Virus record (IMG/VR): IMGVR_UViG_3300045012_000031
Coordinates: 1 to 43,054 of that record
Length of the DNA stretch: 43,054 nt
From: a virus
Strand: one strand, 5' to 3'
A program made the position numbers and the translations under genes. The notes below the pieces were generated by a model that did not search any database, was not told the origin of the DNA, and saw nothing but the letters and a program-made list of their open reading frames with translations. How positions within the stretch are numbered: the stretch's first letter is position 1; each line of letters opens with the position of its first letter. Of this stretch, positions 1,130 to 43,054 are shown piece after piece.

Positions 1130-1139
1130 GCTCTGATTC

Positions 1140-1694: not shown

Positions 1695-1731
1695 GTCAAA
1701 CAGTATATAACCTTAGCATAGGAATGGCAAT

Positions 1732-15963: not shown

Positions 15964-16805
15964 AGCCGCTGGCGATTGACCTGTTTTGTGGGCTGGGCGG
16001 ATGGACTGAGGGCCTACTGGCCGAGGGGTACTACGTGGTCGGATTCGACATTGAGCAGCACGTCTATGGGGAGCATCGCTATCCGGCGCAGCTCGTCATT
16101 CAGGACGTGCTCACGCTCCACGGTAACCAGTTCAAGGACGCTGCGCTGATCGTCGCCTCGCCGCCGTGCCAGGAGTTCAGTTACATGGCGATGCCTTGGT
16201 CGCGAGCCAAAGAGCGCGCACGTCAATATCGCTCAGGCGAGCGCGACGTGAAGGACTTGACGCGCCTATTCGACGCTGCGGTACGCATCGGCAAAGAGGC
16301 AGGCGTCCCCACTGTGATCGAAAATGTCTGCGGCGCTATCCCTTGGGTCGGTCGCTCGCGTTGGAACTATGGCAGCTTCCATCTGTGGGGCGACGTGCCG
16401 GCGCTCATGCCCATGACGAAGGCGGTCAAGGTGCCGGGATTTCGGTTCGACGGCAGCGGTAAATCGTTTCAAACCGAATCGGTGAAGGTTGCTGGCCTAG
16501 ATTGGAGCAAGTTCGGTCAGCCGGGATACAAGGCTCAAGGATTCAATGTGGTTGCCGCGCAGCGGTTCCGAGAAGGAAACAAAGGCGTTCCGCATAAGCC
16601 GACTGGTCACTGGACCAACCCAGCTGAGAACGGCATCAAGTGCGGCGGCGATTGGTTCAACGGCGAGGAACCCAGCCAAATGCGCCATCACAGCAGCAAA
16701 AGCGACAGCCGAAAAGCGGCATCTGCCCAAATCGCCAAGATACCGCTGCCACTGGGACGGCACATCGCCCGCACGTACTTTCCTTCCGATGGAGAAGCGA
16801 AGTAA
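15960..16805 (+). CDS. DNA (cytosine-5) methyltransferase
   Basis: 281 residues. TTG 15960 (TTGA overlap) gives the natural start MKPLAIDLFCGLGGWTEGLL. Motif I (DLFCGLGG), motif IV with the catalytic cysteine (SPPCQEFS, Cys 70) and motif VI (IENVCG, Glu 121) are all present. The target-recognition region is short, and the C-terminus (IPLPLGRHIARTYFP) fits motif X. No restriction enzyme is adjacent, so this is an orphan phage methyltransferase that probably masks phage DNA from host restriction. The target sequence cannot be read. Confidence 0.9.
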   Translation: MKPLAIDLFCGLGGWTEGLLAEGYYVVGFDIEQHVYGEHRYPAQLVIQDVLTLHGNQFKDAALIVASPPCQEFSYMAMPWSRAKERARQYRSGERDVKDLTRLFDAAVRIGKEAGVPTVIENVCGAIPWVGRSRWNYGSFHLWGDVPALMPMTKAVKVPGFRFDGSGKSFQTESVKVAGLDWSKFGQPGYKAQGFNVVAAQRFREGNKGVPHKPTGHWTNPAENGIKCGGDWFNGEEPSQMRHHSSKSDSRKAASAQIAKIPLPLGRHIARTYFPSDGEAK

Positions 16806-25806: not shown

Positions 25807-26067
25807 ATGGCTCGGCCAATACGCCAATTGAATGCCAAAACTCAAGAAGCGTTGCGGCAGCGCATACAATCAGCCCAGCTTATTAAGTCAGTGCAGAAAC
25901 TTGCACTTAGTGATCTCTCAAGCCTCGATGAAGGAAGCGCAAGGGCTGTGAGTGTTAAGCTTGAAGCGGCCAAGTTCTTGTTAACTCGCGCAATTAGCCC
26001 GCCGGTACCTAAAGATGACGACGGCAAGACTGCAACAGGCCCCGTCCTTATCACCTGGGGCACCTAG
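25807..26067 (+). CDS. Small terminase subunit candidate
   Basis: 86 residues, helical and charged (LNAKTQEALRQRIQSAQLIK), ending inside the TerL gene by 53 bases. Position directly upstream of TerL is where TerS lies. It is shorter than typical TerS, and no helix-turn-helix is obvious, so the call is positional. Confidence 0.5.
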   Translation: MARPIRQLNAKTQEALRQRIQSAQLIKSVQKLALSDLSSLDEGSARAVSVKLEAAKFLLTRAISPPVPKDDDGKTATGPVLITWGT

Positions 26068-27391
26068 ACGGATAGTCATCCCGTATACGCCACGGGATCA
26101 CTTCAAGGGCTTCCATGCCCGCACTCATCGCTGGGGCTGCATAGTCGCTCACAGGCGAGCGGGTAAGACAGTAGCTTGTATCAATGAGCTGATTAAGCGT
26201 GCCATTACGGACAAGAAGGAGCGCGGCAGATATGCCTATATCGCGCCCTTCTATGGACAGGCTAAGCAGGTGGCGTGGGAGTATTTGAAGTTCTTTGCAG
26301 CTCCTATCATGGTAGAGGAGCCCAGAGAGTCGGATCTATCGGTTAAGCTCCTAAATGATGCGACTATCAGGCTGTATGGTGCCGATAACCCCAATACGCT
26401 CCGGGGCCTCTACTTTGATGGTGTGATCATGGATGAGTATGCCGATATGAAGCCATCGGTCTGGTCTGAGGTAATACGACCAGCCTTGACTGATCGGAAG
26501 GGCTGGGCGGTCTTTATTGGTACGCCCAAGGGCAAGAACGCCTTCTGGGAGATTTGGGACCATTCGTCCAAGGCCCAGGACTGGTTTGCGGTAATGCTCA
26601 AGGCTAGCCGCACCAAGATACTGCCGGATGAGGAATTAGCCGCTGCGCGTCAGTCGATGACTGAGGATCAGTATGCCCAAGAGTTCGAATGTAGTTTTGA
26701 GGCGGCTATTCACGGGGCTGTCTATGGTCTTCCTATGCGCATTGCTCTTGAGTCTGGTCGCATCGGCGCTGTGCCTTATGACCCTGCTATTCCTGTACAC
26801 ACTGCTTGGGACTTGGGTTTTGATGATTCGACGGCTATTTGGTTCTGGCAGATCACCCATGGAGAGATCCGCCTAATCGATTATTACGAGAATAACGGCC
26901 AGGGGACCGAGCATTACTGCGATATCTTGAAAGCCAAGCCCTACAGCATCAATAACAACTATGGCCGGCACTGGGTACCGCATGATGCAGCGCATGAACT
27001 GATGGCCGCAGGCGGTCGGTCCATCGTCAATCAGGCTTGGAATGCGGGTGTGAAGATGTCGGTTATCCCGGCAACTAGCCAGCAAAACAGTATCGAGGCT
27101 AGCCGCAAGACCATCGAGCGCTGCTGGTTCGATCTTGAGAAGTGCCACGATGGCATAGAAGCGCTTAGGCAGTATCAGTTTGAGTTCGATGAGGACAAGA
27201 AGGCGTTCAAGAGTAAGCCGCGGCATGACTGGGCAAGCCACGGCTCAGATGCCTTTGAGATCATTGGGCAGGTATGGCAGAACCCCTCCACTGAGAAGCC
27301 CAAGCCTAAGCCCATATTCTTGAACGATATGACGGCAGATCAGCTTTTCTGGCCTAAAGACAGAAACAAGGTAAGACAGGAGCGAATTTAA
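26015..27391 (+). CDS. Terminase large subunit (TerL)
   Basis: 458 residues from ATG 26015. ATPase: Walker A AHRRAGKT (45-52), Walker B VIMDEYAD (137-144), coupling segment FIGTPKGKN (168-176). Nuclease: first acidic cluster AWDLGFDDSTA (Asp 266, 270, 271), later ones around HDAAHEL and HDWASHGSDAFE. This is the complete two-domain packaging motor that pumps DNA into the procapsid and cuts it. The packaging type (pac or cos) cannot be told from motifs alone. Confidence 0.95.
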   Translation: MTTARLQQAPSLSPGAPRRIVIPYTPRDHFKGFHARTHRWGCIVAHRRAGKTVACINELIKRAITDKKERGRYAYIAPFYGQAKQVAWEYLKFFAAPIMVEEPRESDLSVKLLNDATIRLYGADNPNTLRGLYFDGVIMDEYADMKPSVWSEVIRPALTDRKGWAVFIGTPKGKNAFWEIWDHSSKAQDWFAVMLKASRTKILPDEELAAARQSMTEDQYAQEFECSFEAAIHGAVYGLPMRIALESGRIGAVPYDPAIPVHTAWDLGFDDSTAIWFWQITHGEIRLIDYYENNGQGTEHYCDILKAKPYSINNNYGRHWVPHDAAHELMAAGGRSIVNQAWNAGVKMSVIPATSQQNSIEASRKTIERCWFDLEKCHDGIEALRQYQFEFDEDKKAFKSKPRHDWASHGSDAFEIIGQVWQNPSTEKPKPKPIFLNDMTADQLFWPKDRNKVRQERI

Positions 27392-27392
27392 A

Positions 27393-27740
27393 ATGGCTAT
27401 TGGCAATATGGAATTGGGTGCGCCTGTCAATCTATCAGCCAGCGGGCAGGTTGCCGGTGGAACGGCAATGGCCCGCACCTATGTGGGTGGGGCTAATGAT
27501 CCTGGTAGCCAAACTGAAACTACGGCACTACAAGGTGCCATGCTGGGCTTCTTTGTGGCTAGCAATTCGAGTGGCGTTATTACATTGACCGCAGGCACTA
27601 GCTCAGGTGGGGCAACACTCCTGGCTAGCTTTACCATTCCAGCGCTTGGTTGGTATTACTTTCCCATCATCTCGCCTACAGGCATCTATTTCACATTATC
27701 GTCAGGTTCGGCCAATATCACCTTCTGCGTAGTCGAATGA
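27393..27740 (+). CDS. Small beta-rich protein between TerL and portal
   Basis: 115 residues, Gly/Ser/Ala/Thr-rich, with SSGVITLTAGTSSGGATLLA and GWYYFPIISPTGIYFTLSSG, a beta-sandwich look. The ATGA overlap couples it to the portal. Possibly a head accessory; no family recognised. Its place between TerL and portal is unusual. Confidence 0.6.
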   Translation: MAIGNMELGAPVNLSASGQVAGGTAMARTYVGGANDPGSQTETTALQGAMLGFFVASNSSGVITLTAGTSSGGATLLASFTIPALGWYYFPIISPTGIYFTLSSGSANITFCVVE

Positions 27741-30337
27741 GCATGGAAGTAGCCACCCCCGTGGTGGCTTTTTGGAAAAATGAGATTGTCCTCTGGGAGC
27801 GCACAAGCGATAAGTGGCTGAAGCGTGGGCGCAAGATCATGAAGCGCTACAAGGATGTGCGCACGCCTAGGGAAGATGCGGTCACAAGGCTTAATATCCT
27901 TTGGTCAAACGTACAAACCAGAGTGCCGGCGCTATATGCTCGGGATCCTAAACCTGAGGTTGAGCGGCGATTCAAGGATAAGGACCCAGTAGGTCGTCAG
28001 GTGGCCGAAGTGCTTGAGCGGTGCTTGGACTATACGATCCAATGTACTAACCCCTTTGGGGCTGTTATCCGCCAGGCGGTCTTAGACTATGAGTTGCCAG
28101 GCCGTGGGACTGTCTGGGTGCGCTATGTGCCGCACTTCCACAAGCAGCTAAACCCGGCTGATAGCACCAATGCAGATGAGGCCGTTGAGGGTGAGGAAGT
28201 CACAAATGATGCTGAGGATGCAGCTTCCGAGCGCATCAAGTATGAAGAGACGATGGTCGATTACGTCTATTGGGAGGACTTTGGGCACACCTGGGCACGC
28301 ACCTGGGAGGAAGTCAGGGCGGTCTGGCGCATCGTTTACTTAACCCGTGAAGAGGGTATAGAGCGCTTTGGTAAAGAGTTCAAAGACTGTCCGTTGGACT
28401 GGCAGCCAAAGACCTTAAAGGACGCTCAGGTCAAACAGGACAATCGCGAGCAGAAGAAAGCCATTATCTATGAGATTTGGGATAAGCAGGACCGCAAAGC
28501 GCTGTGGCTCTGTAAGAACCACCCCAAATTGCTCGATGAGCAGGATGACCCGCTAAAGCTTGAGCACTTCTTCCCCTGCCCGCCGCCGATGTTTGCGAAC
28601 CTGACATCGGAAGAGTTAGTCCCAACGCCCAACTTCACCTTCTACCAGGATCAGGCGAATGAGATAGACGAGCTATCGAGCCGTATCACAGCCATCGGTA
28701 AAGCCCTTAAGGTGGCCGGTGTCAGGGACAGCTCTGCGGAGGGCCTAGATCGCCTCTTGTCTGAGGGCACTGAGAACGCTCTCGTTCCCGTGGACGGCTG
28801 GATAGCCTTAAAAGAGAAGGGCGGCTTGGCCGGCGTCATGGAGCTGCTGCCCTTAAAAGAAATAGCCGAAGCCTTGGGCTTCTTGCGCGAGCAGCGCCAG
28901 ATGATGATTGACGATGTGTACCAGATCACCGGCATGTCGGACATCATCCGGGGGCTCTCTGAGCCTAACGAGACGGCGACCGCTCAGCAGATCAAGGGGC
29001 AGTTTGCGGTATTGCGGTTATCCGACGCCCAGCGCGAGGTACAGCGCTTTTGCCGCGATGTGATCCGCATCATGTCCGAGATCATTGCGGACTATGATAT
29101 CGAGACGATCAAGAAGATATCCGGGGTTAAACTTCTTACACAGGCTGAGAAGGCGCAGTTAAATGCAATCATTAGTGCCGCACAGCATCCAATGCCCCCT
29201 ATGCAAGGAATGGCTCCAGGTGGAGCACCTCAGGCTGCTCCCGGACCACCCATGCAAGGACAACCGGGCCAAGCTCCAGCTCAAGGAAGTCCCCAACCGC
29301 CGCCAGGTCCTGGAGGACCGGCTGCCCCAGCGCCGGGCGTTCAAATGCCCGGAGCCGACAAGTTAAGCTTACTGAAAGAGCCGACTTGGGAAGAGGTCGC
29401 CGCCTTACTTGAAAACCCGGTATTGCGTGAGTTTCGCATCGATGTGGAGACAGACTCGACTATTAGACTAGATGAGGATAATGAGCGGGAAGCCCGTATG
29501 GCCTTCATTACGGCTGTATCGCAGCTGATTGGCGAGGCCTCTAACGTTCCACAGAGCATGATACCAGCAGCCGGCGAGCTGATCCTATTTGGCATCCGCG
29601 GCTTTAAGGTGGCTAGAAGCTTAGAGCGAGTATTTGAAGATGCGATCGAGAAGCTAGCCAATACTCCACCGCCGCCTAATCCTGAAGTGATGAAGCAGCA
29701 GGCGCAGGCCCAGTCAGATGCCCAGATAGCTCAGATTAAGGCTAAGGCGGATATTCAGATCGCACAGGCAAAAGCTGCGGCTGATGCTCAGTCTGATCAA
29801 GCCCGCGCACAGGCGGATATTCAGGTCACGACGCATAAGACGCAGTTGGAGACTCAGCGCGATCAGGCGATAGCTGAGGTTAAGCAGCGTTTTGAGGCTG
29901 AAAAGGCACAGTTTGAGACCGCAGCTAAGAAGGAAATAGCGGACAAGGACAATGCGACTAAGATTCAGATTGCCCAAATGGAGCATCAGCACGAGATGCA
30001 GCTAGAGGGCTCCAAGCAGGCCCATGAACAGAAGATCACCTCCATGACGCAGGAACACGAAGGCCGTATGGCTGAGCATGAACGGCAGACACAGGTTGGG
30101 GTTGAGTCCTTGAAAGCCGATAAGGCTAAGGAAATCGAGCATGTGAAGGGCGAGCACACCGAGAAGGTGGCAAAGCTCAAGCCTAAGGTCAAAGCAGACG
30201 CCGAGGCTGAGGGTAAGGCTAAGGAACATGAACCGACGGTTCAGGCCATTGCCAAGCTCACCGAGGCGCTAAAGGAAGCTCGCAAGCCCCGTAAGGTGGT
30301 TCGCGATGAGAAGGGCCAGATTGTGGGTATTCACTAA
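27737..30337 (+). CDS. Portal protein with long coiled-coil tail
   Basis: 866 residues from ATG 27737. N-terminal portal body (TRLNILWSNVQTRVPALYAR, YQITGMSDIIRGLSEPNETA, then TAQQIKGQF). A Pro/Gly-rich linker follows at about 480-540. A second folded part and then an Ala/Gln/Glu/Lys coiled coil (about 650-820) come next. The C-terminus is KPRKVVRDEKGQIVG, a typical end of podophage portals. The coiled coil fits the barrel extension of P22-type portals, which reaches into the capsid. It forms the dodecameric DNA channel. Confidence 0.9.
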   Translation: MSMEVATPVVAFWKNEIVLWERTSDKWLKRGRKIMKRYKDVRTPREDAVTRLNILWSNVQTRVPALYARDPKPEVERRFKDKDPVGRQVAEVLERCLDYTIQCTNPFGAVIRQAVLDYELPGRGTVWVRYVPHFHKQLNPADSTNADEAVEGEEVTNDAEDAASERIKYEETMVDYVYWEDFGHTWARTWEEVRAVWRIVYLTREEGIERFGKEFKDCPLDWQPKTLKDAQVKQDNREQKKAIIYEIWDKQDRKALWLCKNHPKLLDEQDDPLKLEHFFPCPPPMFANLTSEELVPTPNFTFYQDQANEIDELSSRITAIGKALKVAGVRDSSAEGLDRLLSEGTENALVPVDGWIALKEKGGLAGVMELLPLKEIAEALGFLREQRQMMIDDVYQITGMSDIIRGLSEPNETATAQQIKGQFAVLRLSDAQREVQRFCRDVIRIMSEIIADYDIETIKKISGVKLLTQAEKAQLNAIISAAQHPMPPMQGMAPGGAPQAAPGPPMQGQPGQAPAQGSPQPPPGPGGPAAPAPGVQMPGADKLSLLKEPTWEEVAALLENPVLREFRIDVETDSTIRLDEDNEREARMAFITAVSQLIGEASNVPQSMIPAAGELILFGIRGFKVARSLERVFEDAIEKLANTPPPPNPEVMKQQAQAQSDAQIAQIKAKADIQIAQAKAAADAQSDQARAQADIQVTTHKTQLETQRDQAIAEVKQRFEAEKAQFETAAKKEIADKDNATKIQIAQMEHQHEMQLEGSKQAHEQKITSMTQEHEGRMAEHERQTQVGVESLKADKAKEIEHVKGEHTEKVAKLKPKVKADAEAEGKAKEHEPTVQAIAKLTEALKEARKPRKVVRDEKGQIVGIH

Positions 30338-31734: not shown

Positions 31735-32718
31735 ATGGCACTGATTAATCCGTCAACCGCGTTGACGGAAATCGTGACGACGACTCTGCGAAACCGAACA
31801 GGAAAACTTGCAGATAACGTCACAAAAAACAATGCCCTGCTCTATCGACTACGCGCCAAGGGAAAGGTTAAACCTGTCTCCGGTGGGCGCACGATCGTTC
31901 AGGAACTCAACTACCAAGAAAACGGCACTTTCAAGCGGTATTCAGGCTATGAAGCTCTAGATATCAGCCCCTCGGACGTATTCACCGGGGCGGAATACAA
32001 CTACGCGCAAGCAGCGGTAGCGGTATCCATCTCAGGCCTTGAAATGCTGCAAAACTCAGGCGAGAACGCGATTATCGATTTACTCGAAGGTCGCATTGAG
32101 AACGCTGAGCAAACCCTCACCAATAACATTGCACTCGATACTTACTCTAATGGCACGGCTGATGGTGGCCGGCAGATTGGCGGTATCCAGCTACTGATTG
32201 GGACGACCAATAACAGCGGTGTGATTGGCGGTATCGACTCATCGATTTGGAGCTTTTGGCGCAATGTGGCCTTCTCTGGCGTCACCAATGGTGGTGCTGC
32301 TACGAGTACGGCCAATATCCAGTCCTACATGAATCGTGTGTATTTGCAGCTCGTTAGGGGCGCTGATGCACCCGATTTGATCGTGGCGGATAATAACTAC
32401 TATCGGTTCTACCTAGAGTCCCTACAGGCGATTCAGCGTATTACCAGTGATGAGATGGCCGAAATAGGCTTTCAGTCACTGAAGTACATGAATGCGGATG
32501 TGGTCTTGGACGGTGGATTTGGTGGTGGTGCGCCAGTCAGCTCGATGTACTTCTTGAATACGAAGTACATTTTCTTCAGGCCCCATGCGGATAGAAACTT
32601 CGCTCCGCTGGGTGATGAACGGTTTGCAGTGAACCAGGATGCGATGGTTAAATTGATCGGTTTCGCCGGTAATTTGACCTTAAGCAACCGTTTCCTGCAG
32701 GGCGTTTTGTCGGCGTAA
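31735..32718 (+). CDS. Major capsid protein
   Basis: 327 residues with an AGGAGT ribosome-binding site. It has the HK97-fold major capsid layout of podophages: helical N-arm (TALTEIVTTTLRNRTGKLAD), then INALLYRLRAKG-like and QELNYQENGTFKRYSGYEAL (E-loop region), FRPHADRNFAPLGDERFAVN and the C-terminal GFAGNLTLSNRFLQGVL. It lies between scaffold and a decoration-type gene. Cleavage is not indicated. Confidence 0.9.
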   Translation: MALINPSTALTEIVTTTLRNRTGKLADNVTKNNALLYRLRAKGKVKPVSGGRTIVQELNYQENGTFKRYSGYEALDISPSDVFTGAEYNYAQAAVAVSISGLEMLQNSGENAIIDLLEGRIENAEQTLTNNIALDTYSNGTADGGRQIGGIQLLIGTTNNSGVIGGIDSSIWSFWRNVAFSGVTNGGAATSTANIQSYMNRVYLQLVRGADAPDLIVADNNYYRFYLESLQAIQRITSDEMAEIGFQSLKYMNADVVLDGGFGGGAPVSSMYFLNTKYIFFRPHADRNFAPLGDERFAVNQDAMVKLIGFAGNLTLSNRFLQGVLSA

Positions 32719-32735
32719 CCATAGGAGCATAGACA

Positions 32736-33392
32736 ATGGCTAAAGTTAGTTATGTAAGCCCGCAAGTCAATGCTGCGGTTACGTACAATTGGAGTACTTT
32801 CACCCCCTTGATCGGCGATTTGAGTTTGTGCACGGTATCACTTGACGCACCCGGCGTAGGCCCAGGCTCAGGTATCAATACCATCACGACCTCAATTGCC
32901 CCGCGGCCTATCTTTCAGCCCGTTTTGGGGCAGATTGTGGCCGGCTGGGAGCCGACTTTGGGTTATGGCGAGTTCATCTATCTTGCAGTGCCTGTATCGA
33001 CTGCGGTTCCTTTGGGCACGTTGGTCACATGGTTCACGAGTACGCTTGCGAATTACACTGTAGCGGCCTGTCCGACTACGGCGAAGTCCGCAGCTCCCGT
33101 GGCTGTGTGCGTATCCAACACCTCAGGCACCACTGGCGGTATCACCAGCAATGCGAACTCGATTCAATATGCCTGGTTCCAGTTAGTGGGTATCGTGCAG
33201 ACTCTAAAGACTGCCGTTATTCATACCTTGAACTCCAAAGTGTTTGTCTCAGGTACCGCTGGTCGCGTCATGGTGACCTCGGCATCGGGTACCAACATCA
33301 TTGGAGCACGGTTTGCATCATCCAACAGCGCTACCATCAGTATGGCGCTCGTGTGGTATGACCGGGCGAACGTTATGGGTAATATCACCTAA
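32736..33392 (+). CDS. Capsid decoration-like protein
   Basis: 218 residues, Ala/Thr/Ser/Gly/Val-rich beta protein (GEFIYLAVPVSTAVPLGTLV, GRVMVTSASGTNIIGARF). It follows the major capsid gene with its own ribosome-binding site, the usual place of a decoration or head-stabilising protein. TAATG overlap with the glycan-modification gene. No family proven. Confidence 0.65.
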   Translation: MAKVSYVSPQVNAAVTYNWSTFTPLIGDLSLCTVSLDAPGVGPGSGINTITTSIAPRPIFQPVLGQIVAGWEPTLGYGEFIYLAVPVSTAVPLGTLVTWFTSTLANYTVAACPTTAKSAAPVAVCVSNTSGTTGGITSNANSIQYAWFQLVGIVQTLKTAVIHTLNSKVFVSGTAGRVMVTSASGTNIIGARFASSNSATISMALVWYDRANVMGNIT

Positions 33393-35335
33393 TGCTCAAT
33401 ATCTGCTGCGTCTGCGTCAATACCGACACCTATATGGACGGTCATGCTGTGGAGGCGGTGGAGATTTTGTATTCAATGGTGAGACGGAATTTAAGCGCGG
33501 GGCTCCGTGGACGCTTCACGGTGTTTACGGATAACCCCGCAGCTTTTGATAAAATGGCAGGAGTTCAGACCAAACAACTACCGGCAGGCCCACAAGGCTG
33601 GTTCAATAAACTCTATTTGTTCAGCGAACACGCTTTCCCGAAAGGTGAGCGAGTGCTGTATTTCGATCTGGACACCGTAATAACGGGTCAGTTGGATGAT
33701 ATTGCGGCATATACCGGTTTCTTTGCAATCATGCGCGATGCTTATCGGCTGCATGGCTGGCAATCGGCTGTAATGGCCTGGGAAGCCGGCACTTTGGATG
33801 ATTTATGGCTGGGCTACTGCAATGCCGGATATCCAGAGATTGAAGGCGGGGATCAGGCTTGGATCGAACAATTCCAGCCAAAAGCTGATATCTGGCAGAA
33901 GATGTTCCCCAAAGCCTTTCGCTCCTACAAACTCGAATGCAGCGAGTTTGTGCCTAAGGGAACGTCAGTTGTGTACTTTCATGGGCGTCCGAGGCCGCAT
34001 GAAGTGCAGGGCTGGGTTAAGGATGTATGGAAGATCAGCAACGAAACGATGTTCTTTGCGATGAATGTCAAAGAAGCGGCGGTTCGTAGAAACATTAAAT
34101 ACGCATTAAGTAAACCTAATTGGATTTCAATGTGCGATGGGACGGTGTATCCGGCCATTATTGTGGGTGGCGGACCAAGCTTAGAGGCCGATGTATGGCG
34201 CATCCGCGGCTATCAGCTATCCGGTGCCATCGTCTATGCCACCAATAACACCTACAACTATTTAAAAGAGCAAGGCGTTACTCCCAATGCCCATGTGATG
34301 CACGATGCGAGGGAGCAGAATCTATCCTTCGTGCCGACCGATGAGACAGTGTGCTACTACGCTTCGCAGTGCCATCCCAAGGTCTTGGATGCTGCCGGCG
34401 ATAGATTAGTATGTTGGCATCCGCATACAGAGACATGCCTTGATGTGATCGGCAAGGATTCCAAAGGTCCGACCATGGTCAGTGGCGGTTCAACCATCGG
34501 GCTTAATGCACTATCACTGGCCTATATCTTAGGTCATCGGCAGTTCCTATTGTTCGGTTTTGACTCCTGCTATGCCGAGAATGAACATCACGCCTATCCT
34601 CAGGCTTTAAATGATGATGAGCTGGTGCTCGAAGTCATTGTCCATGGAGAGAAGTTCAACTGTAGCCCCTGGATGATTCAGCAGGGTGAGCAGTTCTTAA
34701 GCCTAGCGAATCAATTGACCGCTTTGGGCTGTGAACTATCGATTTATGGTTCAGGGCTAATCCCTACCATGGCCAAACATGCCATGCCGGTATCGACTGC
34801 GGCAGACCTTCGTGCCAAGAGCCTGCTCACCTGGCTTCAGGATAAGGAAAACCCGGTGGGTGCTGAGATAGGTGTCTTTGCGGGCGAGTTATCCCGCCGA
34901 TTGCTCACCCGTGAGGATCTAACACTCTATCTTGTGGACTCCTGGACCGCGCAGCACAAGCCGCAATATGCAGCCTCCGGGGACTTCCATGCCACGCTCA
35001 CCCAAGAGCAGCAAGAGCGCTACTACCGCATTACCCATCAAATGATCTATTTCGCAGGCCCAAGGGCCAAGATATTGCGCAAGGACTCATCCGATGCAGC
35101 CAAAGAGATCCCAGATAAGAGCCTGGACTTCGTTTTTATCGATGCAGATCATTCTTACGAAGGCTGCAAGGCAGACATTGAGGCTTGGGCGCCAAAGATT
35201 AAGCCCGGAGGCTTTATCTCAGGGCACGACTACGAGAACACCGCATTCCCCTGCTGGGGAGTGAAACAGGCTGTTACTGAGGCTTTTGGCGAACCAGAAT
35301 TAGGCGAAAACTACACTTGGAAGGTCAACTTATGA
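33392..35335 (+). CDS. Glycosyltransferase - DUF115/MptE-like - SAM methyltransferase fusion
   Basis: 647 residues. (a) 1-240: GT-A-type glycosyltransferase, NICCVCVNTDTYMDGHAVEA, and LYFDLDTVITG with the DxD-like DLD at 92-94. (b) 250-470: MAF/DUF115 (MptE-like) domain with AIIVGGGPSLEAD (255-267), YATNNTYNYL and GFDSCYAENEHHAYP. (c) 485-647: class I methyltransferase (Methyltransf_24 type), motif I EIGVFAGE (492-499), VFIDADHSYEG (581-591), GGFISGHDY. No frameshift or stop separates the parts. The likely role is making or capping a sugar on the phage or host surface. TAATG overlap with the decoration gene and ATGA overlap with the next. Confidence 0.85.
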   Translation: MLNICCVCVNTDTYMDGHAVEAVEILYSMVRRNLSAGLRGRFTVFTDNPAAFDKMAGVQTKQLPAGPQGWFNKLYLFSEHAFPKGERVLYFDLDTVITGQLDDIAAYTGFFAIMRDAYRLHGWQSAVMAWEAGTLDDLWLGYCNAGYPEIEGGDQAWIEQFQPKADIWQKMFPKAFRSYKLECSEFVPKGTSVVYFHGRPRPHEVQGWVKDVWKISNETMFFAMNVKEAAVRRNIKYALSKPNWISMCDGTVYPAIIVGGGPSLEADVWRIRGYQLSGAIVYATNNTYNYLKEQGVTPNAHVMHDAREQNLSFVPTDETVCYYASQCHPKVLDAAGDRLVCWHPHTETCLDVIGKDSKGPTMVSGGSTIGLNALSLAYILGHRQFLLFGFDSCYAENEHHAYPQALNDDELVLEVIVHGEKFNCSPWMIQQGEQFLSLANQLTALGCELSIYGSGLIPTMAKHAMPVSTAADLRAKSLLTWLQDKENPVGAEIGVFAGELSRRLLTREDLTLYLVDSWTAQHKPQYAASGDFHATLTQEQQERYYRITHQMIYFAGPRAKILRKDSSDAAKEIPDKSLDFVFIDADHSYEGCKADIEAWAPKIKPGGFISGHDYENTAFPCWGVKQAVTEAFGEPELGENYTWKVNL

Positions 35336-35994
35336 GCGAATTTGCTACACCGCAAACGATTGGGGCGAGCGGCAAGGTCATTTATGGAACAGAAAAGGGC
35401 TTATTGGTTCGTTTCTATGCGAAACCTGTGCTCATGGAGGCCATCTCAAAGGAGCAGGGGTATCCATACTATGAGGACCGCGTCTACATAAACATCGTCA
35501 GCCCCGGCAACACCAAGACGGTATGGGACATGCTCGCCAAAGGGGTCACTCCTAAGTACAAACAGATTTCAGGGGATGAATATGAGCAAGATGGCTGGGA
35601 AATCGATGACACGGAAGGTGAATCAGATCCTACAAAATATCCAGCGGCTTGGGCACTCTTTCTTAAAAAGGGTGAGAAAATCGATAAGGGCTGGGATATT
35701 TCTGAGTGGGGCGCTATTACGCGCTCTTTTGCTGAAAGCCTCAAGGCCTTAAATGTGCCTACCGTGGAAGCCCTAGCAGGACTATCTGATGCCGCGGCGT
35801 CCAACATCATGGGGGGACGTAAGTTCCGCGATATGGCGAAAGCTGCCTTAGATGAGCAGGAACTGATGAGCCTCGCCACCAAGGAGCAGGAAAAGGCAAC
35901 CAAGGCAGAAGAGCGGGTAAAAACCTTAGAGAAGCAGATCGAGGGCATGCAGGCGCAGATTAACTCGATGACTAAGAAGAAAGATGCGGCATGA
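35332..35994 (+). CDS. Head/neck-region protein with coiled-coil end
   Basis: 220 residues from ATG 35332 (ATGA overlap). The first part holds YYEDRVYINIVSPGNTKTVW and WALFLKKGEKIDKGWDISEW, followed by a helix-hairpin-like segment (NVPTVEALAGLSDAAASNIM) and a C-terminal coiled coil (ERVKTLEKQIEGMQAQINSM). A homologous gene is common between capsid and connector genes of such phages; the function is unknown. Confidence 0.65.
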   Translation: MSEFATPQTIGASGKVIYGTEKGLLVRFYAKPVLMEAISKEQGYPYYEDRVYINIVSPGNTKTVWDMLAKGVTPKYKQISGDEYEQDGWEIDDTEGESDPTKYPAAWALFLKKGEKIDKGWDISEWGAITRSFAESLKALNVPTVEALAGLSDAAASNIMGGRKFRDMAKAALDEQELMSLATKEQEKATKAEERVKTLEKQIEGMQAQINSMTKKKDAA

Positions 35995-36938
35995 GCCTAT
36001 TGTCGATCTGTACGGCAGCCTTAACAGAAATCGGACTCCCATCGCTGCCGACGATCATTGGAAATCCTGATCCACAGGCCATACAGACGCTCGCCCTTGC
36101 CAATCGTGCCGGCAAGGAGATGGCTGAGGATCCGCGGGCTGCTGGCTATTGGCAGCAGCTGCGCAAGCAATATACGTTCCAGACTTCCGGGGTTGGTCCT
36201 TACACCTGCACGATTACACCAGGATCCACTACCCTTACGAATTTATCCAGTACGGTCGGTATTACGATTGGTCAGAACGTCTACTCGACTGGCCTAGTCA
36301 ACGATACCCTGGTCGTCCCACCGGGAGTTGTGGGCTCCAGCGTTTCAATATCCCAAGCGCCTACGGCGACAATATCCCTCGCGGGACAGTCGGTGACCTT
36401 TGCGACTGAGAACTATCCGCTTCCCTCGGATTTGGCCTATTTGATCGTACAGACCGAGTGGGACCGCAACTTCAGATGGCAGTTGCTTGGCCCCTTGGAT
36501 GCGCAGGAGTGGCAAGTCATCAAGTCAGGCATCAGCCCAGTAGGTCCTCGTATGCGTTTTCGCATCATGCAGGGGCAGTTTTATATCAACCCGGTGGGAT
36601 CAGCCACCAGTCTCTTCACCGATACGATCGCTTACGAATACGTCAGCAGCTGGTGGGCAGCGATCGCCGCAGCACCTACTGTCGGGGTGAGCAATACCTG
36701 GGCGAATGACACGGACGTATCGCTGATTTCCGAAGATCTGATGATATTGAGCCTGAAATGGCGCTTCTTGAAGGCTAAGGGCTTGGATTGGGAGGCTGAG
36801 TACAAGGAATACAAAGACAAGTTCGATCGAGTGGCCGGTCGTGCAGCCTCAGCGCGTAACTTGCCGCTCAATGCAAGGGCATCAGGAATTCGACTCTTGA
36901 ATAGTGCCAATGTCCCAGATACCGGATTTGGGTCATAG
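35991..36938 (+). CDS. P22 gp4-like head-tail connector protein
   Basis: 315 residues, ATGA overlap. MSLLSICTAALTEIGLPSLP and ALANRAGKEMAEDPRAAGYW, then YPLPSDLAYLIVQTEWDRNF and SLISEDLMILSLKWRFLKAK, are the helical features of gp4-type adaptors that bind the portal and seal packaged DNA. A beta domain of about 75 residues (about 62-140, SGVGPYTCTITPGSTTL onward) is inserted compared with the 166-residue P22 protein. Confidence 0.8.
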   Translation: MSLLSICTAALTEIGLPSLPTIIGNPDPQAIQTLALANRAGKEMAEDPRAAGYWQQLRKQYTFQTSGVGPYTCTITPGSTTLTNLSSTVGITIGQNVYSTGLVNDTLVVPPGVVGSSVSISQAPTATISLAGQSVTFATENYPLPSDLAYLIVQTEWDRNFRWQLLGPLDAQEWQVIKSGISPVGPRMRFRIMQGQFYINPVGSATSLFTDTIAYEYVSSWWAAIAAAPTVGVSNTWANDTDVSLISEDLMILSLKWRFLKAKGLDWEAEYKEYKDKFDRVAGRAASARNLPLNARASGIRLLNSANVPDTGFGS

Positions 36939-37117
36939 AACGTTTCATTGTATCTATACAGAATAACAAAGCGAAATTAACAGCCGATAAAGTACGTATT
37001 ATTCGCGCAAGACGCAATGCAGGAGAAAACTTGAAGCCATTAGCTATCGAATTCGGTATTACTGAAACCGCGGTCTGTAATCTCTGTTTGCGCAAGACGT
37101 GGAAGCACGTTAATTGA
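36905..37117 (+). pseudogene. Helix-turn-helix relic, likely from an HNH endonuclease
   Basis: An open frame without ATG, GTG or early TTG. It reads QNNKAKLTADKVRIIRARRN, then PLAIEFGITETAVCNLC and KTWKHVN. This is the C-terminal helix-turn-helix tail found on phage HNH endonucleases (KLT-x-x-V-R-I...A..FGIT...V...R.TWKHV). The HNH core itself is missing. A frame beginning at ATA 36935 would overlap the gp4-like stop. TTG 37031 would give only 28 residues. Its TGA overlaps the TTG start of the next gene. Confidence 0.6.
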
Positions 37118-38910
37118 AATCGATCACGACTAGCGTTCCGGCGCCGGTCGGCGGGGTTAATGCCCGCGACAGCTTAGCCGCCATGCCGCCCACTGATGCG
37201 GTGATCATGGATAACTGGTTTCCGCAGCCATCATATGTATCCTTGCGCAATGGCACGCAGCTTTGGGCTTCCGGTTTGCCGACGCATGTCAATACGGTCA
37301 TGGCTTATAACGGCTTGCCAACCCGTAAGCTCTTTGCGGCCTCTGGTACTGCGATCTATGACATTACCGCTCAAGGTGCGGTAGGTGCTGCGGTAGTCAC
37401 TGCGCTATCGAGCGATAAGCTTCAACATGCAATGTTCAATGCCGGTGGGGGCAATTTCCTTATCTGGGTCGATGGGGTCGATACGCCACAGTTCTATAAT
37501 GGGACTACCGGCAATATCCTGACCTTTAACACGCTGGTTGGTGGCACCCTTTACACGGCAGGCACTTATACCAATGTGCCATTAACGGGTGGCTCAGGCT
37601 CAGGAGCACTCGCTACCATTGTAGTGGCCGGAGGTTCGGTCACTTCGGTAACGATTATGGTTAATGGCTGGGGCCAAAACTATCTGGTCGGCGATACGGT
37701 CTCCGCTGCTGCAGCTAATATCGGTGGTACAGGATCTGGCTTTAGTATCAATGTGGCGACATTAAGTGCTGGCTGGCATCCCTGCGTGATGACAGGTCCT
37801 GCATCGCCTGCGAATCTGATCACGATCACGGTGCATCAGCAGCGCTGCTGGTATATCGAAAATAACACCATGAACGTCTGGTATGCGCCCGTGACAGCAT
37901 TCCAGGGTGCACTTACGCTATTGCCGCTTGGGTCGCTGTTTAAGATGGGTGGCACGCTCATGCAAATGGCGTCCTGGACCATCCAGAATGTGGCCGGCAT
38001 CAGCGACTATGCGGCCTTCATCACGACAGAAGGTGAGGTAGCGCTATATCAAGGCTATGACCCCTCTCAAGTATCGACATGGTCACTGGTCGGAATATTT
38101 AGGATTGGGAGGCCCATAGGCCGACGCTGTTATTGCAAACTGGCATCTGATATCGCGGTCATTACTGCCGATGGGCTCACATCCTTAAATGCCGCAGTAC
38201 TCACTGATCGGGTAGATGCGGATAAGCAGCTAACGTTTAAGATATTAAACGCTATCAACAATGATGTGCAGAACTATAACGCCAACTTCGGCTGGCAGCC
38301 GATCGATTACCCATTGGGTAATAAGATCATCATCAACGTGCCGGAAGTGACGAATTCCGTGATGCACCAATGGGTACAAAATCCCATCTCCAGGGCTTGG
38401 TGTCGGTTTCGCAACTGGAACGCCAATTGTTGGGAACTGCAGCAAGACTCGCTCTATTACGGCGAGCAGACGCAAGTATTTTTAGCCGATCAAGGTAACA
38501 GCGATGCAGGGAATGCGATTACTGAGGACTGCAAACCGGCTTTTTCATATTTTAGTAAGTCTGGGCCAGGAGGATCTTCTTCATCATTGATGGGAGTCTT
38601 AAAACGCTTTGTAATGGCGCGGCCGATCTTTCAAAGCAATTCAAACCTTGTGCCGACGATTACTCTAAATGTGGATTTTCAGGATGTCATGCGCAGCCCG
38701 CAATCGATCAATTCAGCCGCTGGGAGTCCATGGAATACGAGTCCATGGAACACCTCACCTTGGGCAACCGGCAATATTTTCATCAAGAACTGGCAGGGCA
38801 TATCGGGGTTAGGCTATGTCGCATCTGGCCGTATCACACTCCAGACCAATGGAGTCGCAGCCAATTGGTTCTCAACTGACTACATGTTCGAGCCTGGCGG
38901 GCCCATTTAG
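37114..38910 (+). CDS. P22 gp10-like tail hub / packaged-DNA stabilisation protein
   Basis: 598 residues from TTG 37114. GGVNARDSLAAMPPTDAVIM, DNWFPQPSYVSLRNGTQLWA, VMAYNGLPTRKLFAASG, SLVGIFRIGRPIGRRC and WCRFRNWNANCWELQQDSLY are the blocks of podophage tail-hub proteins (gp10 type). Between residues about 145-230 lies an inserted beta domain (SGSGALATIVVAGGSVTSVT, NYLVGDTVSA) similar to one in the GH5-like protein. Near 545 an SPWNT tandem repeat occurs (SPWNTSPWNTSPWATG). It joins the gp4-like ring to the tail needle/spikes. Confidence 0.8.
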   Translation: MKSITTSVPAPVGGVNARDSLAAMPPTDAVIMDNWFPQPSYVSLRNGTQLWASGLPTHVNTVMAYNGLPTRKLFAASGTAIYDITAQGAVGAAVVTALSSDKLQHAMFNAGGGNFLIWVDGVDTPQFYNGTTGNILTFNTLVGGTLYTAGTYTNVPLTGGSGSGALATIVVAGGSVTSVTIMVNGWGQNYLVGDTVSAAAANIGGTGSGFSINVATLSAGWHPCVMTGPASPANLITITVHQQRCWYIENNTMNVWYAPVTAFQGALTLLPLGSLFKMGGTLMQMASWTIQNVAGISDYAAFITTEGEVALYQGYDPSQVSTWSLVGIFRIGRPIGRRCYCKLASDIAVITADGLTSLNAAVLTDRVDADKQLTFKILNAINNDVQNYNANFGWQPIDYPLGNKIIINVPEVTNSVMHQWVQNPISRAWCRFRNWNANCWELQQDSLYYGEQTQVFLADQGNSDAGNAITEDCKPAFSYFSKSGPGGSSSSLMGVLKRFVMARPIFQSNSNLVPTITLNVDFQDVMRSPQSINSAAGSPWNTSPWNTSPWATGNIFIKNWQGISGLGYVASGRITLQTNGVAANWFSTDYMFEPGGPI

Positions 38911-39328
38911 GCAGCTGCGAACTGGCCTAATTGTAGATAATGATCAACGCTTGGCTGATTGGTGCGCCACTCGGATGCCGCATTTCAGCGGCTGGGGCAC
39001 ACAGCCACGGGCTGTGGGTCTTGAGGTCAGAAGCAGGATCCGCGCTGCCGTTGTGTATACCAATTATAGCGTAGGAAATGTCTTTGCTTCCATTGCGATC
39101 GATGGGCGCATGAATCGTCAATTCCTGCATGCCATTTTCTATAATCCTTTTATCGCCTGGGGTGTGAGGCATATCACCTGCACCATCGAGGATGAGAACG
39201 TGAAGTCACTCAAATTATGCAAACACTTAGGTTTTAAGCAATGCGGACGCTTACGGCAAGCGGCATTCAACGGTGGAGATATCATCATTATGGGCATGCT
39301 AGAAAGCGAATGTAGGTACTTGAAATGA
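38849..39328 (+). CDS. GNAT-like acetyltransferase of the podophage tail region
   Basis: The conserved part starts near 38920 (TGLIVDNDQRLADW) and ends ESECRYLK. AAVVYTNYSVGNVFASIAID, then HAIFYNPFIAWGVRHI and ENVKSLKLCKHLGFKQCGRL, are the blocks of a GNAT-type protein widespread next to connector genes. The start is unclear: ATG 38849 gives 159 residues but lies 62 bases inside the hub gene. A non-ATG start (CTG 38915) would fit the domain better. Acceptor unknown. Confidence 0.7.
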   Translation: MESQPIGSQLTTCSSLAGPFRQLRTGLIVDNDQRLADWCATRMPHFSGWGTQPRAVGLEVRSRIRAAVVYTNYSVGNVFASIAIDGRMNRQFLHAIFYNPFIAWGVRHITCTIEDENVKSLKLCKHLGFKQCGRLRQAAFNGGDIIIMGMLESECRYLK

Positions 39329-40107
39329 GTAAGGGCGGCGGCAACGCTCCGCAACCGGTAGACCCATATCAGCAAGCGAGTGCTCAGTATGGCTTAAACA
39401 CCGGTACCGCAAACTATAATGCGGCGCTTAATCGTACTGGCAATAGCAATGCGTTAGGCTCGAGCGGTTGGAATGTCTCTGGTACTGATCCTCGCACCGG
39501 AGCGCCACTATATAATTTCTCGACTCAATTAGCCCCGCAGTTTCAACAAGCGATCCAAACCCCTTTAGATACCTCACAGATTGCAGGCGGTGGGGCGAAT
39601 AGTCCCAGCGTGAGCATGGGCAATCAGAATGTGGCCAATTCGCTCTTTGGCGAACAGATGGGCTATTTGGCGCCTCAATATGCGCAGCAGCAGACTTCTC
39701 AGAATGCACAGCTCGCTGCTGAGGGTGCAACGCCAGGATCTGAGGCTTGGAACAACGCACAGGGCAATCTAGCCCGTAATCAAACGTTCGGTGAGAATCA
39801 AGCGGCTAATTCGGCCATCACGGGAGCCACTGCACAGCAGGGGCAGTTGCAGAATATGGCTATGCAGGGCTTAAACGCTCAGCAATTAGCCCAGCAAGCC
39901 CCGGTGAATCTATTCAATGCGCTATCTGGTCAGGGTGGCTCTGCCCAAGCAGCAAACACCGACATTATGGGAGCTTTCAATAATCAGTATCAGGGGCAAT
40001 TAAATGCCGCGAATGCACAGAATGCGAGCAATAATGCCTTGACTGGCGATGCCGCGGGCTTGGCTTCATCCTATCTTATGTATCTGGCACTTGCCGGAGG
40101 TGGTTAA
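39325..40107 (+). CDS. Q/N/A-rich ejection-type virion protein
   Basis: 260 residues, ATGA overlap. Begins MSKGGGNAPQPVDPYQQASA. It is Gln/Asn/Ala-rich throughout with helical stretches (GLNAQQLAQQAPVNLFNALS) and an ending of hydrophobics (LASSYLMYLALAGGG). This fits a small internal virion protein ejected with DNA or a tail-needle-associated protein. No sequence-specific family assigned. Confidence 0.65.
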   Translation: MSKGGGNAPQPVDPYQQASAQYGLNTGTANYNAALNRTGNSNALGSSGWNVSGTDPRTGAPLYNFSTQLAPQFQQAIQTPLDTSQIAGGGANSPSVSMGNQNVANSLFGEQMGYLAPQYAQQQTSQNAQLAAEGATPGSEAWNNAQGNLARNQTFGENQAANSAITGATAQQGQLQNMAMQGLNAQQLAQQAPVNLFNALSGQGGSAQAANTDIMGAFNNQYQGQLNAANAQNASNNALTGDAAGLASSYLMYLALAGGG

Positions 40108-40395
40108 ATGTCTATGGATCCGCAAATGTTGGCCGCTATGCTCATGCAGCAAGGAGGGCAACAGCCACAAAATCAGTCTATCGGCGGTATGCAGCCTAAG
40201 ACCGGAATTGCTGGTGCTGGCATGCAGGGCGGCACTGACTTGATGAAGGCCCTCATGATGCAACGCCTGATGCAAAATCAGCAGCAGGGACAAGCTAATG
40301 CCATGCTGCCTGGAACTCAGCAGATGATGAACAGTCAGGCCCCGGCAATGGCTAGCGCCATTCAACCACCACCGATACCGGGGATGAGTCAGTAA
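40108..40395 (+). CDS. Small Met/Gln-rich virion protein candidate
   Basis: 95 residues with unusually many Met and Gln (DPQMLAAMLMQQGGQQPQNQ). It follows the previous stop directly, and its stop is followed at once by the next ATG, so the genes are strictly contiguous. Probably part of the ejection protein set. Confidence 0.55.
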   Translation: MSMDPQMLAAMLMQQGGQQPQNQSIGGMQPKTGIAGAGMQGGTDLMKALMMQRLMQNQQQGQANAMLPGTQQMMNSQAPAMASAIQPPPIPGMSQ

Positions 40396-42009
40396 ATGCC
40401 TGATCCGAATGCGACTCAGCCGCCATATCTAGATCCATCGGCATATCCTGATTATCTAGATATGCAGCGCAAGCAGATGCTTGCGCAGATGCTGATGCAA
40501 AATACCCAGCAGAGCAATCAAACGCCCTCTGATTGGAACCAAATGCGGTTAGTACCGCGGCGCAGCCCATTGCAGGGACTATCCACATTAGCTTCGAGCA
40601 TGCTTGCCGCAAATGCCCTTAAAGGCTCACAGCAGGCCCAGCAGAAGTACTTTCAGAACATCTATGGCGGTGGGCAGCCACAGGGCCAATCGGCCCCTGC
40701 GCAGTCCCAAGGGCCTCCACAGCCTGGGCAACAGCCACAAATGCAGCAGCCTCAACAGAATCCGCTGATCCCCAACGGCATGAGCCAAGGCACTGCGCAG
40801 CAGATGATTGGCATGATGGGACCGGAGAAGTATGCAGAGAGCTTCATTGCGCCGAACTATAAGCCTGCGGAGGTAAAAGCAGAGATTCGCGCCGCTGGTA
40901 TTGATCCAGACTCGCCGTTAGGGCGGCAACTGGCACAAGGCAGGCTTGCCAAGTCCAACTATGTGGCTCCGATCGAGCAGCGGCCTGGAGCTATTGAGCG
41001 CGATCCTTTTAGCAATCAGGTGATCGGCCAGAATCCATCCTTGCCACAAGGAGCCGTGAATACTTATGACCGAGAAGGCAAACTTTCAGGATCTGCGATG
41101 TCGCCCGGAGCGACGGAAGCGATTGCCCAAGCTGCAGGTGCGCAAACGGCCGGCAAGGTCGCCAATGAATATACGACGCTGCCCACCGCAAGTGGCGGCT
41201 CCGCAGTAGTCGGTGGACCACATACGGGGTTGCCGAATGCTCCTAGCTATTTTCCGAAGCCTACAGCATTGCCTGGATCCGCAGCGCCACCGCAAGCGCC
41301 TCCCGTGAATCCTAACAGTCCATGGGCAAGCATGCCTAAGCTAGCGACTCCTGAAGGAATTGGGGCTCCCGGTGAATTTACTAAGACAATGCTCAAGAAT
41401 GCAGCGGATAAGCATGCTGAATTAGTGACCAAGTATGGTGCTGAGGCCGATACGGCTGACCAGAAAATGAATTACAACAATGAGGCGTTAAAGGCGCTCC
41501 CTAATGCAGAAGTTGGCCCAATTTCGCATTTTATGACTGAGAATCGCGCGAAGCTTCAGGAATGGGGCGTAAGTCCTAAATTGATTCCTGGCAGTGGGAC
41601 GGTGACGCCGACCTTTGAACTCAATAAGAACTTGCTTAACTCAGCCTTGCAGGGTGCTAAGCAGATCTATGGTGCCCGCATGACGAGCAATGAGGTCATG
41701 CTGCAAAAGAACGAAGCCAGCCCTTCTGTGGCTACCTCGCAGCAGGCCGTTAAAAGCCTCATTCAGCAGGATAATGCTAAGAATGCGTACTTTAAGCAGC
41801 GATCTCAGGATTATGGGCAATATATGCAGCAAGGAGGGGATCCAAATCGCTTTGAGAGTTGGTATTCCAATAAGTTTCCGCTACAAGACTTTGCCAAGAA
41901 ATATGCAACGCCGCCGCAAGCTATCGCATTGCTAAAGACTAATCCGGCTTCGGCAGCGGCGTTTAAGCAAAAATATGGATGGTTGCCTGATGCCAGCAGC
42001 AGCCCCTAA
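40396..42009 (+). CDS. DNA-ejection / internal virion protein
   Basis: 537 residues. The N-terminal third is Gln/Pro/Met-rich and disordered (GQPQGQSAPAQSQGPPQPGQ). It is followed by helical parts (GGDPNRFESWYSNKFP) and the C-terminal NPASAAAFKQKYGWLP, a short block that recurs in internal virion proteins. Placed between two similar proteins and after the tail hub, as the E-proteins of P22-like phages are. Confidence 0.7.
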   Translation: MPDPNATQPPYLDPSAYPDYLDMQRKQMLAQMLMQNTQQSNQTPSDWNQMRLVPRRSPLQGLSTLASSMLAANALKGSQQAQQKYFQNIYGGGQPQGQSAPAQSQGPPQPGQQPQMQQPQQNPLIPNGMSQGTAQQMIGMMGPEKYAESFIAPNYKPAEVKAEIRAAGIDPDSPLGRQLAQGRLAKSNYVAPIEQRPGAIERDPFSNQVIGQNPSLPQGAVNTYDREGKLSGSAMSPGATEAIAQAAGAQTAGKVANEYTTLPTASGGSAVVGGPHTGLPNAPSYFPKPTALPGSAAPPQAPPVNPNSPWASMPKLATPEGIGAPGEFTKTMLKNAADKHAELVTKYGAEADTADQKMNYNNEALKALPNAEVGPISHFMTENRAKLQEWGVSPKLIPGSGTVTPTFELNKNLLNSALQGAKQIYGARMTSNEVMLQKNEASPSVATSQQAVKSLIQQDNAKNAYFKQRSQDYGQYMQQGGDPNRFESWYSNKFPLQDFAKKYATPPQAIALLKTNPASAAAFKQKYGWLPDASSSP

Positions 42010-43054
42010 TATTTATGATCAATTCGATGATCCACAACCGACGCAAACGATAGCGGCTTCCTCATCAACGAAAGAAGTCAATCCTTTTGATCAGTTTGAT
42101 CCCCCAGAAGTGCAAGCAGCTCGCGCACAGCAAAATAAAAAGATTGATCCGTTGCGTCAGGTAGCTTTGCAAGGTCGTGCTATCGGTGAAGGTGTAAGTA
42201 GTGCTTTGACACTTCCACTCACTGCAATGACTGCTTTGCAGAATACTCCTGCTTATATTGCCAATAATGTATTTGGTGGGAAATATCCTTATCGACCGTT
42301 TCCATCTCAGGGTATTTCAGCGGCTCTCAATAAAGCGGGAGCCCCCAACCCTGAAACTCCTGGCGAGCAATTAGGATCTGCTGCTACTCGTGGTGTTACC
42401 GGGGCCTTGACAATGAGTCCTGCTGGCATACCTGCTGCCATTAGATCAGGTATGTCAGGACTCACTGGTGCTAGTTCATCTGAGATTGCACGGCAATTAG
42501 GTGCTCCAGGCTGGGCACAAGTAGGGGCTGGTATTGTAGGTGGTCAAGTGCCATTAGCCTTAGAGCAAACGGGCGCAAATCTTTTCGATCTGGCACGCCC
42601 GGCAACCGCTGCTGGCCAACAGAGATTGGCGGGGAATCTATTCAATCAACAGGCTCGCAATCCGCAAGCGGCCATTCAAAATCTCGAAAGTAGTCAACCC
42701 ATAGTTCCTGGATCAATGCCAACATCTGGACCGGCGTCTGGTGATATTGGTCTATTGGGTTTAGAGAAAGGCTTGCGCGGTAATAGTCCTGCTGAATTTG
42801 GCGAGCGTCTATCGGGGCAAAATACTGCGCAGCAAGCCGAATTGTCGAGTATGGCTGGGAAACCCAGTGATATTACTGCTGCTGAACAAGCTCGCGATGC
42901 AGCCACTAAGGCCAGCAGAGATGCGGCTTTTGCAAATGCTGGATCAGCCAATGTTAGCCCAGTTATCAGTAAGATTAATGGCCTATTGGCAAGTCCGATC
43001 GGCAAGCGCGATATCCCATCGCAGGCTCTGACTTGGCTTAAGGGTAAATTGGTG
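41990..43054 (+). CDS. DNA-ejection / internal virion protein, N-terminal part
   Basis: 355 codons from ATG 41990 (20 bases inside the previous gene), open at the right edge and continuing at base 132 of the window; total about 601 residues. The N-terminus carries two copies of a short motif (IYDQFDDPQ and NPFDQFDPPE) seen at the start of podophage internal proteins. It then has a Gly/Ala-rich hydrophobic region (VSSALTLPLTAMTALQN and AQVGAGIVGGQVPLALE) that could insert in or cross a membrane during ejection. Confidence 0.75.
   Translation, partial: MPAAAPNIYDQFDDPQPTQTIAASSSTKEVNPFDQFDPPEVQAARAQQNKKIDPLRQVALQGRAIGEGVSSALTLPLTAMTALQNTPAYIANNVFGGKYPYRPFPSQGISAALNKAGAPNPETPGEQLGSAATRGVTGALTMSPAGIPAAIRSGMSGLTGASSSEIARQLGAPGWAQVGAGIVGGQVPLALEQTGANLFDLARPATAAGQQRLAGNLFNQQARNPQAAIQNLESSQPIVPGSMPTSGPASGDIGLLGLEKGLRGNSPAEFGERLSGQNTAQQAELSSMAGKPSDITAAEQARDAATKASRDAAFANAGSANVSPVISKINGLLASPIGKRDIPSQALTWLKGKLV
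42924..43054. repeat. Terminal direct repeat, right copy
   Basis: The partner of 1-131, differing at one base (T at 42955). It is inside the ejection-protein gene, in the same frame. Confidence 0.9.

Follow-up and report, generated by a model that had tools for sequence, protein, structure and literature searches.

The DNA studied here (43,054 bases; IMG/VR virus record) was analysed over its full length (hereafter, the window) and belongs to an uncultured Mx8-like podovirus. Its terminase and portal genes are followed by a gene in the scaffold position, the major capsid protein (MCP) gene, a predicted capsid decoration gene, a gene encoding a three-domain transferase (hereafter, the fusion), a 220-aa gene and a tail/adaptor gene (Table 1). 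The MCP is 65.6% identical to that of Bradyrhizobium phage ppBjS10J-1 and 48.9% identical to that of Mx8; a megablast search with 22 kb of the window against cultured phages returned no match. Structural genes are found at both ends of the record (window 1-5000 and 37114-43054), and in two relatives (L015 and L017) the homologues of 1732-2607 and 2577-3185 come directly after that of the gene at 37114; hence, the record probably represents a circularly permuted, near-complete genome. Elsewhere in the window, a GNAT-like acyltransferase gene (38816-39328) occupies the same place as in Mx8 (p53) and most relatives, and an RNA-ligase-like protein is encoded on the opposite strand (7629-8336 (-); phrog_548, E 3.2e-20) amid small ORFs without known function.

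Table 1. Features of the capsid operon around the fusion gene (window coordinates)
Feature	Position	Strand	Evidence or context
Terminase gene	26015-27391		Operon upstream of the capsid genes
Portal gene	27650-30337		After the terminase; then scaffold-position gene, then MCP
Major capsid protein (Mx8 p48-like)	31735-32718	+	phrog_9953, E 5.4e-126
Predicted capsid decoration/stabilising protein (Mx8 p49-like), 218 aa	32736-33392	+	phrog_29386, E 4.8e-8; AF2 fold
TAATG stop/start overlap, decoration gene/fusion	33390-33394	+	Sequence
Three-domain transferase (GT8-type GT, Maf/MptE-like PF01973, Methyltransf_24), 647 aa	33392-35335	+	Pfam, PHROGs, AlphaFold2 model, full-length homologues
N-terminal GT-A (GT8-type) glycosyltransferase domain, residues 1-218	33392-34045	+	phrog_1962, LgtC/glycogenin folds
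Middle PF01973 domain, residues 227-463	34070-34780	+	Pfam, 5MU5 fold and profile
C-terminal class I SAM-dependent O-methyltransferase domain (Methyltransf_24), residues about 480-647	34829-35332	+	Pfam, fold
ATGA start/stop overlap, fusion/220-aa downstream gene	35332-35335	+	Sequence
220-aa gene closing the slot (Mx8 p50 homologue)	35332-35994	+	HMM matches; present in Mx8 and nearly all relatives
Tail/adaptor gene (Mx8 p51-like)	35991-36938	+	phrog_6013, E 4.5e-45

Integrity and coupling of the fusion gene

The fusion ORF runs from the ATG at 33392 to the TGA at 35333-35335 with zero internal stops. The initial annotation had described a single frame joining a GT-A glycosyltransferase (GT), a DUF115/MptE-like domain and a class I methyltransferase, and the Pfam and phrog_1962 profiles together with the AlphaFold2 folds confirm both the domains and their order. 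The translational coupling claimed there is likewise present in the sequence, in the form of the TAATG and ATGA overlaps. At the same time, the statement that the coupling is to capsid genes holds in part: the overlaps involve the predicted decoration gene and the 220-aa gene of the virion operon, whereas the MCP gene lies one gene farther upstream.

Full-length homologues of the fusion, with identities of 80, 77, 68 and 44%, occupy the same position in independent contigs. The comparison of the window with the homologue in L002 (dN 0.15, dS 1.99) shows purifying selection, to be read as strong overall selection only, given the near-saturated dS. In addition, the first two domains contain 17 positions, putatively belonging to active sites or motifs, at which 24/24 proteins carry the same residue. 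Since these three lines of evidence coincide, the fusion is regarded as a genuine gene, neither a chance ORF nor an assembly join.

Folds and family assignments of the three domains

The AlphaFold2 model of the fusion, built from 24 homologues, reached a mean pLDDT of 87 and a pTM of 0.53; because of the latter value, the relative placement of the domains is uncertain. Folds were compared with VIA-align 2 run on Foldseek candidates, and one structure-prediction alignment left out the Mx8 and Mx9 rows. Structure prediction served as a check on the initial annotation and shows a GT fold in the N-terminal part and a DUF115 fold in the middle.

The N-terminal domain has no match in Pfam, the GT8 model included; it is recognised over residues 41-215 by the PHROG glycosyltransferase family phrog_1962 (E 2.5e-21). 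In the model, residues 1-218 resemble LgtC (1g9r; Z 18.3, 201 aligned, rmsd 3.0) and glycogenin (Z 18.1), and the family profile reaches the alpha-galactosyltransferase 6MW5 (E 4.9e-6). D92, D94, D154, H197 and G198 are invariant in 24/24 proteins, with D92-x-D94 as the DxD motif. As modelled, the domain has a GT-A fold of GT8 type with a DxD metal motif and a putative function in sugar-nucleotide-dependent transfer.

The middle domain matches the MptE-like family PF01973 above the curated cut-off (residues 248-396, E 3.1e-20). Its relatives in Pfam and UniProt are named 6-hydroxymethylpterin diphosphokinase MptE-like, and a true pterin pyrophosphokinase, 8sd5, is weakly matched by the family profile (E 1.7e-4), so an assignment of the fusion to cofactor metabolism had to be considered. 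However, the same profile finds the Maf flagellin glycosyltransferase 5MU5 with a far better E value (2e-11), so the domain is considered Maf-like rather than MptE. 5MU5 is also the top fold match of residues 227-463 (Z 21.9, 220 aligned, rmsd 3.1), the partners to which it is fused, or next to which it is encoded, belong to the glycan enzymes or the methyltransferases, and no pterin genes are seen near the fusion. A pterin kinase is accordingly highly improbable here, and this assignment was rejected on the far closer Maf profile and fold. G260, P262, S263, D305, R307, H343, G366, D391, S392, H400, N407 and W427 of this domain are invariant in 24/24 proteins.

The C-terminal domain matches Methyltransf_24 (PF13578; residues 492-614, E 2.9e-17, above the curated cut-off), and residues 446-647 fit class I O-methyltransferases with Z of about 17 (MeT1, Z 16.6). 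The motif residues E492, G494, D584, H587, H612 and D613 are kept in 16/16 proteins possessing this domain. The sugar O-methyltransferases MycF and MeT1, the latter a 1-O-methyltransferase blocking the end of an oligomannoside (PMC9883506), are among the Foldseek matches, and catechol-type O-methyltransferases fit the fold equally well; it is the fusion partners and the neighbouring genes that point to a sugar as the substrate. The top PHROG match, phrog_2675 (E 6.7e-25), is annotated as a DNA methyltransferase and might be taken to mean that the fusion glycosylates or methylates the bases of the phage DNA. Such a role has very little probability and was rejected, considering the Methyltransf_24 identity of the domain with its fold matches to small-molecule and sugar O-methyltransferases, the presence of a separate DNA-methyltransferase-like ORF (window 15930-16805; phrog_363, E 6.5e-14) and the replacement of the domain by FkbM and C-methyltransferases in relatives. 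Overall, the database names are misleading for both parts, i.e., MptE-like pterin diphosphokinase in the relatives and DNA methyltransferase in the PHROG record for the C-terminal part, and the present assignment corrects them for a common phage protein. The activity proposed in the initial annotation, the building of a sugar and its subsequent methylation, is backed as a predicted catalysis by profiles, fold matches and relatives.

A fixed slot with exchangeable contents

Scanning viral contigs with a GT+MptE profile yielded 47 loci, about 27 of which encode GT plus MptE. Wherever the neighbours are visible, the GT-MptE genes of these contigs sit between the decoration gene and the homologue of the 220-aa gene (hereafter, the slot), a position kept even at 35% capsid-protein identity; in many relatives, the slot gene overlaps the decoration gene. 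Relatives with the same domain order were sought as well, and about 16 distinct GT-MptE-Methyltransf_24 proteins were found, all in the slot (window, L002, L003, L009, L010, L015-L018, L021-L024, L027, L056 and L080). Pairwise identities of the three domains correlate across the family (r 0.69-0.87), as would be expected if the domains travel together.

Sampling by capsid protein (the 80 best matches to the query, not a census), chosen to avoid the bias of a search with the enzyme, provided 67 loci with a complete slot. A PF01973 protein is present in the slot of 23/67 and absent in 44/67 of these capsid-sampled loci; two of the 23 harbor the three-domain fusion, three GT-MptE plus FkbM, two GT-MptE, and 16 a PF01973 protein without a GT recognised by the GT model. 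On a capsid-protein tree of 91 loci, the presence of a PF01973 protein in the slot changes at least 15 times. None of the cultured relatives Mx8, Mx9, BUCT555 and ppBjS10J-1 carries such a gene at this place, a tblastn search of 50,697 phage records with the middle domain gave no match, and the three-domain architecture was found in no cultured phage of the collection searched. In plasmids, tblastn recovered the GT domain only, at up to 45% coverage. The first search of genome contigs gave no relative and the second only a GT-only protein on a contig from an Armatimonadetes MAG (L057), hence the phage could not be assigned to a host. A literature search on DUF115 in phages revealed nothing relevant.

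The partners of the GT-MptE pair vary from phage to phage. In L011, the third domain of the fusion is FkbM (PF05050, E 5.7e-12) in the same place as Methyltransf_24; a separate FkbM gene lies directly upstream of the GT-MptE gene in L032 and directly downstream of it in L072, L085 and L086. L026, L029, L030 and L035 combine a sugar C-methyltransferase (PF08484) with GT and MptE domains that are either joined in one two-domain protein or encoded by split genes; in L035, the domains are separate genes in the same slot. L031 carries another class I methyltransferase there. Other slot contents include a part of a nucleotide-sugar pathway in L025 (Polysacc_synt_2 dehydratase, E 5e-77, and FdtA, E 1e-24) and a hexapeptide transferase in L087. 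That other families have taken over from the methyltransferase several times, at a single location and always next to the same partner, speaks for a common pathway of methylation and sugar transfer.

Several peculiarities of these loci were recorded besides. Tandem pairs of PF01973 genes (543 aa + 245 aa) share one slot in L098, L101 and L107. In the glycan slot of L011 (5051-6007), a CTP-dependent riboflavin kinase domain (PF01982) and a class I methyltransferase are joined in one protein, which is an unusual pairing. In L136 (2-1571), GT and FkbM genes lie upstream of the capsid gene, outside the usual slot, and may mark a second site for glycan genes. An HNH endonuclease (PF13392, E 3.8e-15) directly follows the fusion in L010 (4624-5139), a possible means of moving slot cargo.

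A broader proposition, for which we see about as much reason to accept as to doubt, is that the Mx8-like podovirus family maintains a polymorphic, swappable virion-glycan cassette at a fixed slot by the decoration gene, in which Maf-type domains, familiar otherwise from flagellin, were co-opted to form the core that glycosylates proteins, while at least three methyltransferase families supplied the methyl cap anew. Such a cassette, if true, would correspond in phages to the glycosylation islands for O-antigen or flagellin and would make the virion surface vary.

Putative virion glycosylation and its known parallels

The decoration protein encoded just upstream contains 23% Ser+Thr. Its AF2 model, of modest confidence (mean pLDDT 65), resembles the decoration proteins of Pam3 (Z 11.5), XM1 (Z 11.4) and T1 (Z 10.4), the matches to Pam3, XM1, T1 and TW1 together covering Z 9.9-11.5, as well as the base of the phi29 head fibre. 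According to this model, the protein coupled to the fusion is likely exposed on the capsid and presents a natural acceptor candidate. The Ser/Thr content of the decoration proteins is higher in cassette-bearing phages than in others (21% vs 17%, raw p 2e-5), but the excess is gone once relatedness is considered (six supported tree pairs, median p 0.5); Ser/Thr content was therefore dropped as a hint to the acceptor, the independent tree pairs giving it no support.

The fusion probably, though with considerable reservation, represents the main enzyme of a polymorphic virion-glycosylation cassette. It would be made with the capsid genes during late expression, in the host cytoplasm. Maf relatives put sugar directly on Ser/Thr of flagellin; by the example of these relatives, the PF01973 domain would start the chain by linking a sugar to Ser/Thr of a protein on the phage surface, a further hexose would be added by the GT8-type domain, and the C-terminal domain would O-methylate the terminal sugar, ending the chain. 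The likeliest acceptor would be the Ser/Thr-rich decoration protein, otherwise the MCP. Location within the capsid operon accounts for late co-expression but does not define the substrate; taken with the Maf analogy, it suggests an acceptor on the virion surface, and this suggestion gains strength from the fixed slot beside the predicted decoration protein as well as from the exchange of sugar-modification genes there. No nucleotide-sugar pathway is visible at the fusion's slot in this phage, hence the use of host nucleotide-sugar donors is assumed. Maf enzymes use nonulosonic acids, and the phage has no sign of nonulosonic acid synthesis, which counts against the proposed mechanism.

It is well known that cell surfaces can be modified by glycosyltransferases of phages and by the O-methyl capping of polysaccharides. 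The fusion might thus modify LPS or another glycan of the host cell, rather than the virion, late in infection or in a lysogen, so that other phages or its own progeny could no longer adsorb. Maf's PF01973 core resembles the sialyltransferase Cst-II (PMC11339370), and one weak PHROG match is an alpha-2,3-sialyltransferase, both in agreement with such a role. Nevertheless, the gene lies amid the late capsid operon in every relative, often overlapping the decoration gene, and neither a flippase nor a polymerase is encoded beside the fusion. Moreover, Maf-dependent glycosylation is reported to be cytoplasmic and to precede flagellin export (PMC4065374). Modification of the host surface is considered unlikely.

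Slightly less probable still is an effect on host range through modification of tail or tail-spike proteins instead of the capsid shell. The tail adaptor gene is two genes downstream, a tail-spike-like gene is present in the same genome, and mycobacteriophages glycosylate the tail tube as well as the capsid (PMC12363180); against this, the directly coupled neighbour is the predicted decoration protein, and the slot adjoins head genes in all relatives.

For the glycosylation of the capsid surface, the refilling of the same slot with other glycan genes across Mx8-like phages means that the sugar coat probably differs from phage to phage. Such variation would be as expected under selection by something recognising phage surfaces; shielding or altered adhesion is a plausible benefit. 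To our knowledge, glycosylated proteins have been demonstrated in few bacterial viruses so far. In the present group of phages as a whole, a glycan cassette that is both dedicated and interchangeable seems to be maintained next to the capsid genes, including one enzyme with two sugar-transfer steps and a methyl cap. The new part is the genomic context: unremarkable in one genome, the gene becomes more interesting as a member of a swappable cassette. If true, phages would vary in surface chemistry as much as bacteria do in their O-antigens, with consequences for the question of what recognises phages in natural settings, and the fusion would offer a compact, apparently soluble, protein-directed glycosyltransferase-methyltransferase for glycan work.

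Relatives of the fusion have already been deposited under the name of pterin diphosphokinase: the best BFVD matches, uncultured Caudovirales phage proteins A0A6J5PVH5 (700 aa) and A0A6J7XC21 (685 aa), show 34% and 28% identity over 473 and 674 columns, respectively. Maf (5MU5) shares the PF01973 core and is the nearest solved structure by sequence and fold; it carries out cytoplasmic O-glycosylation of a self-assembling surface protein. Unlike the fusion, Maf has its own N- and C-terminal domains, flagellar loci and nonulosonic acids, and the overall architecture is not shared, the 5mu5 match spanning chain 244-502 only; in the fusion, which a phage encodes within its capsid operon, the PF01973 domain is flanked by a GT8-type GT on one side and a methyltransferase on the other. 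In mycobacteriophages (Che8 gp110, Corndog gp38, Myrna), phage-encoded GTs modify capsid and tail-tube proteins (PMC12363180, citing Freeman 2023). The GT is phage-encoded in both cases, that of the fusion lying inside the virion gene region; the mycobacteriophage enzymes, however, are single GT proteins proven by experiment, and the text consulted on them describes no PF01973, fused methyl cap or swappable slot.

The closest functional parallel, by analogy and not by family membership, is A064R of PBCV-1, a single GT-GT-MT protein of 638 aa that assembles the terminal portion of the glycan on the major capsid protein and also methylates it (PMC9614988). It differs in belonging to a virus of a eukaryotic alga, in extending an N-glycan and in having a rhamnosyltransferase of a new GT family, not PF01973, as its middle domain. 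At the same time, both proteins are almost equal in size, the predicted layout of the fusion is of the same kind as that of A064R, with two glycosyltransferase domains followed by a class I methyltransferase, and the first domain of A064R is likewise a GT-A fold with a DxD motif.
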